This document shows, piece by piece, positions 27,070 through 31,729 of a stretch of 36,236 bases of DNA. The stretch lies in assembly GCA_021795465.1 (NCBI GenBank), contig JAJYPK010000018.1:1-36236 (forward strand). The letters are read 5' to 3'. The notes beneath the pieces are model-generated. The model did not search any database and was not told where the DNA came from. It was given only the letters and a program-made list of their open reading frames with translations. The first letter of the stretch is position 1, and each line of letters begins with the position of its first letter. The DNA is from Bacillota bacterium. GTDB lineage: Bacteria > Bacillota > Sulfobacillia > Sulfobacillales > Sulfobacillaceae. Made by a program: the position numbers and the translations under genes.

Positions 27070-27723
27070 TTATGGGTTTTGTGAGTCCATAACAAGCTTC
27101 AGTAATTGCGCTTCGGGTACAGCTCCCGTGACTTCCAAGGTTCCATTGACCATGGATTTTGGCACGCCGTAGACGCTGTATTTATTGGATAGGTCGGGAA
27201 ACTCTCCCGCGTCGACCATATCTGCAATGATATGGGGTGACGCTAGTGCCATGCTGTGTGCCAGGCGTACAGCCCGGGGACAGTATGGTCACGTAGGGGT
27301 CGTAAACACCTGAATGTGCACTGGTTTTTGAATCCCGGCCAGTGACGCCTCGGCTGCTTTAGAAAGACCTGACGTGTGGGTTGACACCGATTTAATCCCT
27401 TCTAACAGGGTGCCAAACTCATGACCACTCGGAATTCCGACGAATCGAATGCCGGTGCGGTTGCCATCTTTGTCTAAGAGCTCCGCGATGGGCCCTGTCA
27501 CCGTTTCGGTTCCCCCATGGCCGGGTTCGAGTTCGGGTTCTTGCGATCCCTCTTGAATCATGATGAGATCCGACAAATCGGCGACTTCGTTGACAAGATC
27601 CTTAAAGGTTGTCGCGGTGTCCGCATCGGGTCCTCGATACCATTGTAGGGTTACCGGATCTTGCAGGCCTTGGAAAAATTCGGTGACCTGCGCCGTGATT
27701 TGGCTGTCTAATAAGGCCATCAT
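27070..27723 (-). CDS. Two-domain protein disulfide oxidoreductase with in-frame TGA (candidate selenoprotein)
   Basis: A 217-aa tandem-thioredoxin-fold protein of the thermophile PDO type if the TGA at 27289-27291 is read through. The N-terminal domain (about 1-125) has L-Q-W-Y-R-G-P-D-A-D where a CxxC would be, so it is redox-inactive, and the G-I-P-S-G-H-E-F motif typical of PDO. The C-terminal domain has V-F-T-T-P-T, TGA as residue 145, then P-Y-C148-P-R-A-V, and the cis-Pro strand Y-G-V-P-K-S-M-V-N-G. The TGA replaces exactly the first active-site Cys. The frame is open through to TAA, and a good SECIS-like hairpin follows the TGA. The ATG has GGGAGGTG upstream. It is the last gene of the MBL-rhodanese operon, so a Sec-based persulfide or disulfide reductase is likely. 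Confidence 0.82.
27254..27283 (-). promoter_or_regulatory. Bacterial SECIS-like hairpin (disulfide oxidoreductase)
   Basis: On the minus strand, CCGGGC pairs with GCCTGG (six pairs, one G-T) around the five-base loop TGTAC. After a small internal loop, CTGT pairs with ACAG for four more. The apical loop starts 18 bases after the TGA and has a G at its second position. This matches the known bacterial SECIS geometry well. Confidence 0.6.
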
Positions 27724-27760: not shown

Positions 27761-28384
27761 TTAGACGCGCTCCACAGGATGGCGGCCGCCCATCCAGAGC
27801 GACATACCTCCAACCACGTTGGCCACCTCAAGTCCTTGTTGCGACAACCATGATGCAGCAGATGCACTACGGTTGCCCGAAGCACAGATGATCGCGTGTG
27901 GCTTGGAGCGGTCGAGTTCGCTGGCCCGACCTTGCAATTGCCCGATGGGAATATTGATCGCGCCGGGTACGATGCCGGATCGTAGCTCATACGGTTCTCG
28001 CACATCGACGACCACATAATTGTCAAGATTTCTTGCTAATTCGTCAACGGTGAGATCCTTCACGCTCTCTACCGGTAAGCCCTCCTGGTCCCAGCCCTTG
28101 ACGCCCCGATCGAAGGTAAACGGCACCGACAATCCTGCAGCGGTGAGGCTCTCCTTGGCTGCTTCGGCAATCACGGTATTATCTGCAAACACGCCAAGGG
28201 GAGGGGTCTGACCATTGAGTGCGCGCTTAATTTCTTGTCCCCATCCCCGTCGATGGAACGGCACGTTATAGCTTCCCGCAGGATGTGCCTTCGAATACGC
28301 ATGAGCCGGGCTCACATCGAGTAGTAACGCGCTGCCATCTTGAACTTGTTGAAAAAAATCTTGTGCAGTGAGTGAGGTAGACAT
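27761..28384 (-). CDS. Tandem-domain rhodanese (thiosulfate sulfurtransferase family)
   Basis: A 207-aa protein with two rhodanese domains. The N-terminal domain (about 1-105) keeps the fold (L-D-V-S-P-A-H-A-Y, H-P-A-G-S-Y-N-V-P) but its active loop is F-A-D-N-T with no Cys, so it is structural. The C-terminal domain (about 112-207) has the D-V-R-E-P-Y-E start and the active loop I-C167-A-S-G-N-R-S. It carries sulfane sulfur as a cysteine persulfide. It lies 15 bases behind the ETHE1-like gene and 37 before the disulfide oxidoreductase gene. The three probably handle persulfides together. Confidence 0.88.
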   Translation of the reverse strand: MSTSLTAQDFFQQVQDGSALLLDVSPAHAYSKAHPAGSYNVPFHRRGWGQEIKRALNGQTPPLGVFADNTVIAEAAKESLTAAGLSVPFTFDRGVKGWDQEGLPVESVKDLTVDELARNLDNYVVVDVREPYELRSGIVPGAINIPIGQLQGRASELDRSKPHAIICASGNRSASAASWLSQQGLEVANVVGGMSLWMGGRHPVERV

Positions 28385-28399
28385 GAAATTCCTGCCTTT

Positions 28400-29161
28400 C
28401 TAGTGAGATTGCTGACTCCCGAGATTGTGGTCTCGAATGAGGGATGCGTCAACGGGTGGTGGTTTTAAGAGGCTAAGCACCTCCGTAACGAACGCCTGAG
28501 GGTCCGTAATCTGGGCGAATCGATTCCATCGCCGTTCATAGCCCACCGTAGAGATGGGTTTGGGACTTAAAAACAATCCGCCACAGGCCGACGCCCCGTA
28601 ATGGGCGGGATAGAGCTCTGTGGTGTCCGGCAAGCTAAGAATTTTATCGTGTACCGAATGAAATTGATCTAACGCGGCCCGCTCAGTCGACTCGGGAGTC
28701 GGGTCCACCAGATCCGGGCGGCCCACATCCCCCACAAAGAGCGAGTCTCCACTGAGGACCAACCATGGATCTGAACTCCGCGTTTTATCTGTCACCACCA
28801 GCGATATGCTGTCAGGGGTATGGCCTGGGGTTTCCCAGACCGTCACCTGGACTCCGCCGAGGTCAAATTGGTCCCCGTCATGCAGGGGATTAAAGGCGTC
28901 TCTTAGGGGGGCCTTATGGCCCATAGAGACAAGGAGATCGGTTTTCTGGGCAAGCTCTCGGGCAATCGAGTGATGATCCGCGTGGACATGGGTCTCGATC
29001 ACACCAACAATCTTGAGGCCCACTTCTGCCGCGGATAAAATATAGGTATCGGCACCAATCGCCGCGAGTGGATCTACGACAATCGCGCGGCCGTCCGCAT
29101 CGTCTCCGACGATAAACGAGGCACAGCCGTGAGAACCATCCCATATCGGTATGAAAATCAT
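28400..29161 (-). CDS. ETHE1/persulfide dioxygenase-like metallo-beta-lactamase-fold hydrolase
   Basis: A 253-aa MBL-fold protein. The metal motif is T-H58-V-H60-A-D62-H63. T-P-G-H-T-P-D-S, G-D-S-L-F-V-G-D-V-G-R-P-D-L and Y-P-A-H-Y-G follow. Together these are typical of the ETHE1/PDO clade and of the sulfur-oxidising MBL partners of rhodanese. Such enzymes oxidise glutathione- or low-molecular-weight-thiol persulfides to sulfite using a mononuclear iron. The ATG has AAAGGAG nine bases upstream. It is the first gene of the operon and its start lies 21 bases from the CstR-type operator. The substrate is inferred from context. Confidence 0.85.
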   Translation of the reverse strand: MIFIPIWDGSHGCASFIVGDDADGRAIVVDPLAAIGADTYILSAAEVGLKIVGVIETHVHADHHSIARELAQKTDLLVSMGHKAPLRDAFNPLHDGDQFDLGGVQVTVWETPGHTPDSISLVVTDKTRSSDPWLVLSGDSLFVGDVGRPDLVDPTPESTERAALDQFHSVHDKILSLPDTTELYPAHYGASACGGLFLSPKPISTVGYERRWNRFAQITDPQAFVTEVLSLLKPPPVDASLIRDHNLGSQQSH

Positions 29162-29319: not shown

Positions 29320-29592
29320 GTGATAAGCCAGTTTTGGGACATCGCGGAACTCAAACATCGGATGCGCCGTATTGAGGGCCAAGCCCGGGGGATTCAAGCC
29401 ATGTTGGACCGCGGAGAAGATTGTAAAGCGGTCTTGACCCAGTTGGCGGCGATGTCGGGGGCACTAGGTAAAGTCTCTCGGGTCATTGCCGCGTGCGGAC
29501 TAGCCGACACGTTGCGACGCGATGCGACCGGGCTCAGCAATGAAGAAATTCGCAGCGTGCTCCAGAGTCTTCATGAAACGGGCAGACTGTAA
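29320..29592 (+). CDS. CsoR/CstR-family (DUF156) thiol-sensing repressor
   Basis: A 90-aa all-helical repressor. M-R-R-I-E-G-Q-A-R-G-I opens the family helix. Cys35 (E-D-C-K-A-V-L-T-Q-L-A-A) is the conserved sensor Cys. The second metal or thiol position, His in CsoR/FrmR, is occupied by Cys59 (I-A-A-C-G-L), and no third ligand is visible. A Cys-Cys pair without His favours persulfide or electrophile sensing, as in CstR, over copper sensing. It is divergent from the sulfur operon and shares its palindromic operator. The GTG start has only a weak site (GAGTGAG). The frame is open upstream to a stop at about 29273, with GGGGGAG just before four ATT codons, so a longer N-terminus is possible. 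Confidence 0.85.
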   Translation: MISQFWDIAELKHRMRRIEGQARGIQAMLDRGEDCKAVLTQLAAMSGALGKVSRVIAACGLADTLRRDATGLSNEEIRSVLQSLHETGRL

Positions 29593-29610: not shown

Positions 29611-30000
29611 ATGTTTAACGTGTTAGGATATACGAAAGCCACGAAGAAGAGTGTGGACCAGGCCGTAGCAGACTTGGGGACGTCGGTCGAATCGAACGGC
29701 TTTAAGGTGTTGAACCAACTCGATATTGCGGGGATTTTAAACAGCAAAGGATTTGATTGTGAACCGACTCGCATTTTAGAGGTCTGTCACGCCCCGTCCG
29801 CGGCGGTCGTGTTAGAGGCTAACGTCGACATTAGTCTTTTGTTGCCCTGCAAGATTAATGTGTACCAAAGAGATGGACAGACCTATGTATCGGCGCTGGA
29901 TCCTGCCATGATGAAACAATTTTTCGCAGAACCCGAAATCCTCAAGATCGCGAACGAAGTAGAAGTTTCCATTAAACGAATCGTGGATCAAGCCGTCTAA
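29611..30000 (+). CDS. DUF302-family protein
   Basis: A 129-aa DUF302 protein. The family pattern is seen in S-V-E-S-N-G-F-K-V-L, then a Gly- and Asp-rich turn, R-I-L-E-V-C-H-A-P, and L-L-P-C-K-I-N-V-Y with Cys71- and Cys88-region residues. DUF302 folds as a small alpha/beta domain of unknown function that often accompanies sulfur or heavy-metal genes. GAGGGG abuts the ATG at 29611, so the GTG at 29620 may be the true start. It follows the repressor gene by 18 bases and is probably co-transcribed. Confidence 0.82.
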   Translation: MFNVLGYTKATKKSVDQAVADLGTSVESNGFKVLNQLDIAGILNSKGFDCEPTRILEVCHAPSAAVVLEANVDISLLLPCKINVYQRDGQTYVSALDPAMMKQFFAEPEILKIANEVEVSIKRIVDQAV

Positions 30001-30021: not shown

Positions 30022-30053
30022 CTCTACGGATTAGCCAATATGGGTCCGTAGAG
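30022..30053 (+). terminator. Hairpin after the DUF302 gene
   Basis: CTCTACGGA (30022-30030) and TCCGTAGAG (30045-30053) form a perfect 9-bp stem around a 14-base loop. No T-tract follows. It directly precedes the next promoter and is probably a terminator or insulator of the repressor-DUF302 transcript. Confidence 0.45.
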
Positions 30054-30056
30054 TGC

Positions 30057-30084
30057 TTGCCTGGCACGAATATTTTGTCATAAT
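30057..30084 (+). promoter_or_regulatory. Promoter of the CAP-domain gene
   Basis: TTGCCT (30057-30062), 16 bases, then CATAAT (30079-30084). Transcription near 30091 would exclude the upstream in-frame start codons and favour the ATG at 30122. Confidence 0.5.
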
Positions 30085-30121
30085 GATACATACGTGTTTG
30101 AACAAGCGACGGGGATTTCCC

Positions 30122-31729
30122 ATGCGGAGATGGGGAAGACAGCTCCGGGAGGTGAGTTGCATAACGCTTTGGGCCAAACCACGAAAGAGGCAAATCTTGG
30201 CCCATCTCGCATGGGCTTTTCCACTCATCTTGGCCTTTATGGGACTCGCCTCGGGGATCGCCCCGAACACCCTCACCGCCCCTATTTCTGGGTACTGGCC
30301 GATACATCTAGTGCCGTCGTTGTTTGGCCCTTATTCCACCCTACAGAACTTCGGATATGAATCGGGAAACCAGATAAGCCCCATCATCCCCACTTCCTAC
30401 ACGGCTTGGCGGTCTCCGAGAATCTTGGGGGTTCAGTTTGTCGGAGATGCTCCCACAAATCTTCGAGCGGATCGGTTTTCCTTGTCGGTGACAGGACCTG
30501 GTGGAACCATCCGAGGTCTTGCTGTGCATTTTTCGTCAACAGGATTCGTGGGTTGGAGCATCCCGCGGCTGAGTCCCGGAACCTACCACGTCACTTTTCA
30601 CACCCCTCTCTTTAAACAAACCCAGTCGAGTTGGACGCTGACAATCCTAAAACCCAAGACTCCCTGGGTCTCGGTGCAGGAGACCACCAACGATCGAATC
30701 AGCCTTGACACCATAAATGCCTACCGGTCGGTTCTGGAGGAACCACCGGTGACCTGGAGCACGTCCTTGGCGGATGCAGCCGAGACCCACGCTGGCTATC
30801 TAAAAGTCAACGGGTATAGCGCACCATCATTTCATATGGAAACCCAGGGGCGTAAAGGATTTAGTGGGCGAACACCCTGGGCCCGTGACTTGCGGTTCGG
30901 CTGGAGGAGTGTGTTGGACGGCGAGGTGGGAATTGAATGGGCCTCACCCATTCCTCCCGTGCAAGTCGTCCAAGACCTGATCGATACCGTTTTCCATCGG
31001 TTGTCGTTGTTATCGGGGAACCTCTTGGCGAGTGGAGAAGGCACCAGCGTGGGGAAGACGGGAGCTGTCGTCATGGACCTCGGGTTTGGGTACAATCCCG
31101 AGCTTCCCTTGGCGATTGCATATCCTCGCCCCGGACAGAGCGGGGTACCCATAAGCTGGGTGGATCTGGAAAGCCCAAACCCCGTGCCTCACGGGTTTGG
31201 GCTGCGCTATGGGTACCCGCTAACCGTGGACTTTCCTACCATCCAACACTTAAAGGCCGTACGCTTTGGGCTTTTTTTGGGACATCAAACTGTGCCCGCG
31301 TATCCGGTGCCACCCGGTGTCAACTCCATGTCCGATAACCAAATTGGGATGGTGCCAAAGCGTCCGCTATTTCCCAACACGGTGTATACGGTGAGTGTCC
31401 AAGGGAATGCCGTGTTTAACAGTGGGGCGCTTAAGCCTATTGACCTGCAATGGTCATTTCAGACAGGAGGCGGATCCGAGTCGTTGGCGGCAGCTCCGGT
31501 ATCCTCCCATAAAGTCTTGGTTTCGGTAGTTCGGGCGGGTGGGGGCAACCCGATGATCGATACGGCGGTGCGGCTTTATCGGGTGATCGCCCAGGGCCGT
31601 TTGAAGTTAGAAGCGACCGGACACACTAATCGTCGGGGGATGTGGGAGGCTGCCCGGATGAGTGTGCGAAAACATGCCCTGTATGAGGTGTCTTCGGCAA
31701 CCGGAAATAGCCAACAATTCTGGTGGTGA
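30122..31729 (+). CDS. Secreted CAP/SCP-domain protein
   Basis: A 535-aa exported protein. After a basic N-region, a hydrophobic segment (about 28-45, A-W-A-F-P-L-I-L-A-F-M-G-L-A) acts as signal peptide or anchor. An immunoglobulin-like beta region (about 100-190) follows. A CAP (SCP/PR1, YkwD-type) domain starts at I-N-A-Y-R-S and includes A-A-E-T-H-A-G-Y and H-M-E, the His/Glu cavity residues. The C-terminal 200 residues are beta-rich and unrecognised, with a Big/SLH-like feel but no clear motif. Bacterial CAP proteins are usually found in the wall or spore coat. The ATG at 30122 has GGGGA at 30111 and lies after the promoter. The next gene begins 5 bases after its TGA. Confidence 0.75.
   Translation: MRRWGRQLREVSCITLWAKPRKRQILAHLAWAFPLILAFMGLASGIAPNTLTAPISGYWPIHLVPSLFGPYSTLQNFGYESGNQISPIIPTSYTAWRSPRILGVQFVGDAPTNLRADRFSLSVTGPGGTIRGLAVHFSSTGFVGWSIPRLSPGTYHVTFHTPLFKQTQSSWTLTILKPKTPWVSVQETTNDRISLDTINAYRSVLEEPPVTWSTSLADAAETHAGYLKVNGYSAPSFHMETQGRKGFSGRTPWARDLRFGWRSVLDGEVGIEWASPIPPVQVVQDLIDTVFHRLSLLSGNLLASGEGTSVGKTGAVVMDLGFGYNPELPLAIAYPRPGQSGVPISWVDLESPNPVPHGFGLRYGYPLTVDFPTIQHLKAVRFGLFLGHQTVPAYPVPPGVNSMSDNQIGMVPKRPLFPNTVYTVSVQGNAVFNSGALKPIDLQWSFQTGGGSESLAAAPVSSHKVLVSVVRAGGGNPMIDTAVRLYRVIAQGRLKLEATGHTNRRGMWEAARMSVRKHALYEVSSATGNSQQFWW

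Follow-up and report, generated by a model that had tools for sequence, protein, structure and literature searches.

The window, i.e. the whole stretch of DNA that was analysed (36,236 nucleotides), carries on its minus strand a gene of the protein disulfide oxidoreductase (PDO) family with a TGA in its reading frame. The features of the gene and its surroundings are the following.

27070..27723, minus strand: gene for a predicted selenocysteine (Sec)-containing PDO with two thioredoxin folds, 217 amino acids with U145 when translated through the TGA
27289..27291, minus strand: in-frame UGA, predicted to encode Sec as residue 1 of the UPYC active site; Cys homologues have a Cys codon (TGC/TGT) at the aligned position
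27280..27282, minus strand: codon of Cys148 (TGT), which would pair with Sec145 as the second redox residue of UPYC, an invariant alignment column
27616..27633, minus strand: GPDADT (residues 31-36), the degenerate counterpart of the N-terminal CxxC of canonical PDOs
27247..27291, minus strand: bSECIS-type hairpin, recognized by folding, stability rank, pair conservation and codon constraint
27277-27272 and 27266-27261, minus strand: apical stem of the hairpin, beginning about 12 nt after the UGA
27271-27267, minus strand: apical loop UGUAC of the hairpin, beginning 18 nt after the UGA
27761..28384, minus strand: upstream gene of the cluster, for a protein with a rhodanese domain (PF00581, 80.8 bits), adjacent in related loci
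28400..29161, minus strand: ETHE1-like metallo-beta-lactamase-fold protein, putative persulfide dioxygenase (PF00753; weak match to NF040641, the dioxygenase part of Blh), adjacent in related loci
29320..29592, plus strand: CsoR-family repressor, divergent to the cluster (PF02583, 67.4 bits)
29611..30000, plus strand: DUF302 protein (PF03625, 59.8 bits), a recurrent neighbour in related loci

The original prediction described a candidate selenoprotein whose frame runs through one TGA, with VFTTPT before it and PYCPRAV after it. Translation of the minus strand from 27723 to 27070 gave exactly this picture: the only TGA is that at 27289-27291 (U145), the surrounding residues are VFTTPT-U-PYCPRAVRLAH and the frame is terminated by TAA. 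A plausible ribosome-binding site (GGGAGGTGTAAATG) is located 5' of the gene. The expectation that a conventional annotation would call two unrelated short ORFs did not hold, since the mechanical ORF list (at least 80 amino acids) contains a 144-residue N-terminal ORF as the sole entry on this frame and the C-terminal half is unlisted. When the window was scanned by codon usage for other read-through TGAs, no convincing candidate emerged; the true Sec site itself ranked only 6th out of 402, which makes the scan too insensitive to exclude others.

With the TGA read through, the protein matched the NCBIfam model TIGR02187 (PDO_seleno_TRX) with 205.4 bits against a cut-off of 185, residues 8-212 aligning with positions 3-207 of the 209 of the model. 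The AhpF model gave 92.4 bits, below its cut-off of 502.9, for this protein of 217 residues. Alignment with the Pyrococcus PDO structures extended over nearly the full length. An AlphaFold2 model built from nine sequences (pLDDT 90.6) was superimposed on Pyrococcus PDO 1a8l with a Z-score of 29.5 over 204 residues, which indicates tandem thioredoxin folds. The same two folds are shared with the archaeal and Aquifex PDOs (1j08, 1a8l and 2ayt; Z 29-30, 31-33% identity) and with the AhpF N-terminal domains (4o5q, 1zyn and 5h29; Z about 26).

Canonical PDOs, a subset of TIGR02187, possess two redox centres, although a CxxC in the first fold is not demanded by the model score; the window protein would have one. 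In its second fold, the UPYC motif at positions 145-148 aligns with the CPYC of the outgroups, and the Pyrococcus PDOs likewise display CPYC there, with Cys in place of Sec. In the first fold, the loss of the CxxC that had been predicted was verified: GPDADT is found where homologues have CxxC. The motif is missing in the window protein and in the relatives of its family, whereas the outgroups examined, among them Chloroflexota and the other Firmicutes, possess it. In the TGA-bearing PDOs inspected from further Firmicutes families, the first fold has CPYC, which is absent here, and the second has UPYC. As a consequence of this loss, Sec145 and Cys148 would form the only redox pair. The AhpF N-terminal domain also has a single active CxxC, located in its second fold; the window protein differs from AhpF in being unfused to a flavoprotein and in having Sec instead of Cys.

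Taken as a whole, the gene very probably encodes a full-length selenoprotein of the PDO family, in which the UGA at 27289-27291 is decoded as Sec, the Sec-Cys pair is the sole redox centre and the likely function is the reduction of persulfides or disulfides. SelB and tRNA-Sec would decode the UGA with the help of the hairpin directly downstream, and the resulting Se-S pair would act as the only centre in an arrangement like that of the AhpF N-terminal domain. Sec145 would attack the substrate (a disulfide, a persulfide or a polysulfide), Cys148 would resolve the intermediate to give a selenenylsulfide, and a partner, presumably of the thioredoxin reductase type, would re-reduce it. The substrates would most likely be persulfides or disulfides arising from sulfane-sulfur handling, in view of the neighbouring ETHE1, rhodanese and divergent CsoR-family repressor, which may regulate the cluster.

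The ETHE1 and rhodanese neighbours had been predicted, and profile matches placed both genes 5' of the PDO gene. ETHE1 and/or rhodanese genes were found close to the PDO gene in eight genera of the family. The order ETHE1-rhodanese-PDO recurs across genera whose PDOs share only about 40% identity (L047, L049, L074, L077, L079), and CsoR and DUF302 genes are often located near such loci in the relatives. A comparable cluster has been described in B. licheniformis, where a CstR-like repressor responding to sulfane sulfur controls a rhodanese, a persulfide dioxygenase and a hypothetical thioredoxin (PMC9918477). The window shares with this CstR/YrkD-regulated cluster a CsoR-family repressor, a rhodanese, a persulfide dioxygenase and a thioredoxin-like protein, but the counterpart of the thioredoxin is here the predicted selenoprotein PDO. 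Because the ETHE1-rhodanese-CsoR neighbourhood recurs and is paralleled in B. licheniformis, a role as persulfide/disulfide reductase is slightly favoured over that of a general reductase.

The same selenoprotein could alternatively serve as a general cytosolic disulfide reductase or electron carrier, e.g. one supplying peroxiredoxins in the manner of the AhpF N-terminal domain. This function is a strong contender, with a probability somewhat short of even. The closest folds of the window protein are those of general PDOs and of the AhpF N-terminal domain, and in genus g8 the orthologue keeps the UPYC motif with neither ETHE1 nor rhodanese within the loci inspected, so that the persulfide link is not obligatory. 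The preservation of the ETHE1-rhodanese-PDO order between genera, at the low PDO identity given above, speaks against a purely general function.

Some further observations were made in and around these clusters. In the CsoR-family protein (29320-29592, plus strand), the second Cys is located, as judged by eye, about 5 residues earlier than usual, and the protein might accordingly respond to a different inducer. A large CAP/SCP-domain protein is encoded beside the sulfur cluster (30053-31729, plus strand), and a relative of it occupies the same place in the Sulfobacillus sp. locus L052. On contig 55 of genome G022 (L076, 2450-7711), an ETHE1-rhodanese pair is followed by a UPRC paralogue, with a UPYC PDO, CsoR and DUF302 nearby.

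Decoding of the UGA as Sec was predicted to depend on selA, selB, selC and selD, and all four functions were identified in the genome to which the window belongs (3.58 Mb, 252 contigs, 100% complete). The tRNA-Sec scored 71.9 bits, above the Rfam cut-off, and was also identified by ARAGORN as tRNA-SeC with anticodon tca. SelA, SelB and SelD were found with 477, 346 and 352 bits, respectively. Both SelD (SGUGCKL, L017) and FdhA (CNRTUHAPSV, L110) of this genome contain an in-frame TGA as Sec, which brings the number of UGA-Sec genes to at least five, including three UGA-PDOs. Recoding of the UGA is near-certain as far as can be judged from sequence, and Sec would be inserted in vivo.

It is very improbable that the UGA is read as another residue, such as Trp in a reassigned code, or that the truncated product of 144 residues is functional. 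The N-terminal part forms an open ORF on its own, as such a product would require, but the product would lose the only active site. Among 30 window genes picked by eye from the ORF list, 7 have TGA as their terminator, so that it also serves as an ordinary stop in this genome, and the site aligns with a catalytic Cys and not with Trp. Translation of TGA as Trp was rejected on these grounds, together with the presence of the complete Sec machinery.

Alignment of homologues, which had been suggested as a check of residue 145, revealed either UGA or Cys at exactly that position. The UGA was found at the identical residue in 44 sampled sequences (41 distinct) from many genera, down to a protein identity of about 25-40%, and the half of the PDO downstream of it is conserved as protein. 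Chance is excluded by these two findings. At the loci inspected, the C-terminal UxxC begins with the TGA. Among named relatives, the nearest is a Sulfobacillus sp., which has the same gene cluster and a PDO 89% identical (L052). CPYC occupies the site in outgroups from Chloroflexota, Spirochaetota and Elusimicrobiota, and also in two relatives with no strong SelA match.

Across the family, PDO matches with a single TGA were detected in all but two of 34 genomes. A TGA-PDO is present in all 29 family genomes with a strong SelA match (hand count), while G003 and G004 have no strong SelA match and none of the PDO matches listed for them contains a TGA. Genome G002 is an exception, with TGA-PDOs and no SelA match (a draft of 400 contigs, 96% complete); TGA-PDOs without a SelA match also occur in G032 and G033, which are 63% and 71% complete. 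In a gene tree calculated with the Sec/Cys site masked, about 10 changes of the Sec/Cys label would be required, at least 6 of them on well-supported branches, the deep branches being poorly resolved and some rows very long.

A hairpin had been proposed 18 bases after the TGA. It was recovered with its apical loop beginning at that distance and its apical stem at about 12 nt, and its geometry fits the bSECIS model, which describes a small apical loop located 16-37 nt downstream of the UGA, with a G at its position 1 or 2 (PMC13188914). Here the loop UGUAC has its G at position 2 and starts 18 nt past the UGA. The minimum free energy (MFE) of the 50 nt from the UGA is -19.3 kcal/mol, and the hairpin ranks first in stability among the 203 segments of 45 nt in the PDO gene, although its z-score against dinucleotide shuffles is modest (about -1.6 to -2.0). 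The six pairs of the apical stem are preserved in 37-41 of the 41 distinct Sec forms. In the UTFC paralogues, a C-G pair is changed to U-A on both sides of the stem. Most apical pairs are preserved less often in Cys forms than in Sec forms. In several relatives, the bSECIS motif is absent from the MFE structure.

The clearest sign of the hairpin is codon choice. At the hairpin positions of Sec genes, Pro is encoded by CCC in 38 of 42 cases (33% elsewhere in the same genes), Arg by CGG or CGC in 73 of 74 (61% elsewhere) and Leu by CTG in 40 of 42 (22% elsewhere), counts which, like their Fisher P-values, ignore shared ancestry. Cys genes show no such preference at these positions. Synonymous codons are hence under strong constraint in Sec forms, a constraint that is absent in Cys forms. 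Although a TGA is one base away from TGC or TGT, a nonsense mutation, a pseudogene or a sequencing error at an ancestral Cys codon has a negligible probability, given the same TGA in 44 sequences from many genera, the intact coding sequence downstream and the constrained hairpin. A pseudogene or sequencing error is effectively excluded by the independent genomes with the same TGA. Every computable test proposed along with the selenoprotein reading was favourable to it.

This gene belongs to an already catalogued selenoprotein family. TIGR02187 has been listed as a predicted UxxC family (PMC9312934, PMC13188914), and a 'homolog of AhpF N-terminal domain' was reported in Carboxydothermus and Symbiobacterium (Zhang et al., 2006; PMC1794560). 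The window protein resembles the TIGR02187 members annotated as 'homolog of AhpF N-terminal domain (Grx-like domain protein)', e.g. ABB15282.1, in having UxxC at the second thioredoxin unit. What is added is lineage-specific variation, the less usual traits being the loss of the N-terminal CxxC, the radiation of UGA paralogues and the recurrent ETHE1-rhodanese-PDO neighbourhood. A role of TIGR02187 selenoproteins as persulfide or polysulfide reductases is unreported in the selenoprotein literature examined. A search on selenoproteins in Sulfobacillus retrieved no relevant paper, and Sulfobacillus-type bacteria are not named in the selenoproteome literature searched. For such a bacterium, an ORF apparently truncated by UGA would become a selenoenzyme, and, owing to its association with ETHE1 and rhodanese, a role of selenium in persulfide chemistry can be tested directly.

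Two further UGA-PDO paralogues are encoded in the genome of the window, one with UTFC on contig 150 and one with UPRC on contig 10 (L061, L062), besides one Cys-form PDO, CPHC, on contig 37. Relatives have as many as six UGA-PDO loci in one genome (G014, hand count), and the active-site position was checked in 20 further loci (L090-L109). The motifs across the family include UPYC, UPHC, UTFC, UTRC, UFRC, UMAC, UAFC, UPRC, UPQC, UPKC and UGHC, among others. From its affiliation with Sulfobacillus, the lineage is presumably aerobic and sulfur-oxidising. Selenoproteins are rarely retained by aerobic bacteria according to a 2026 review (PMC13188914), and several UGA-PDOs per genome would be a notable exception among aerobes if this lifestyle applies. 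It is tentatively proposed, at odds clearly below even, that in an aerobic, sulfur-oxidising lineage single-centre Sec-PDOs have multiplied to form a set of paralogues, of which at least the ETHE1-linked one may be a selenium-dependent persulfide/polysulfide reductase. One genome (G018) with otherwise UGA forms harbours a Cys paralogue with an unusual CRWC motif (L071).
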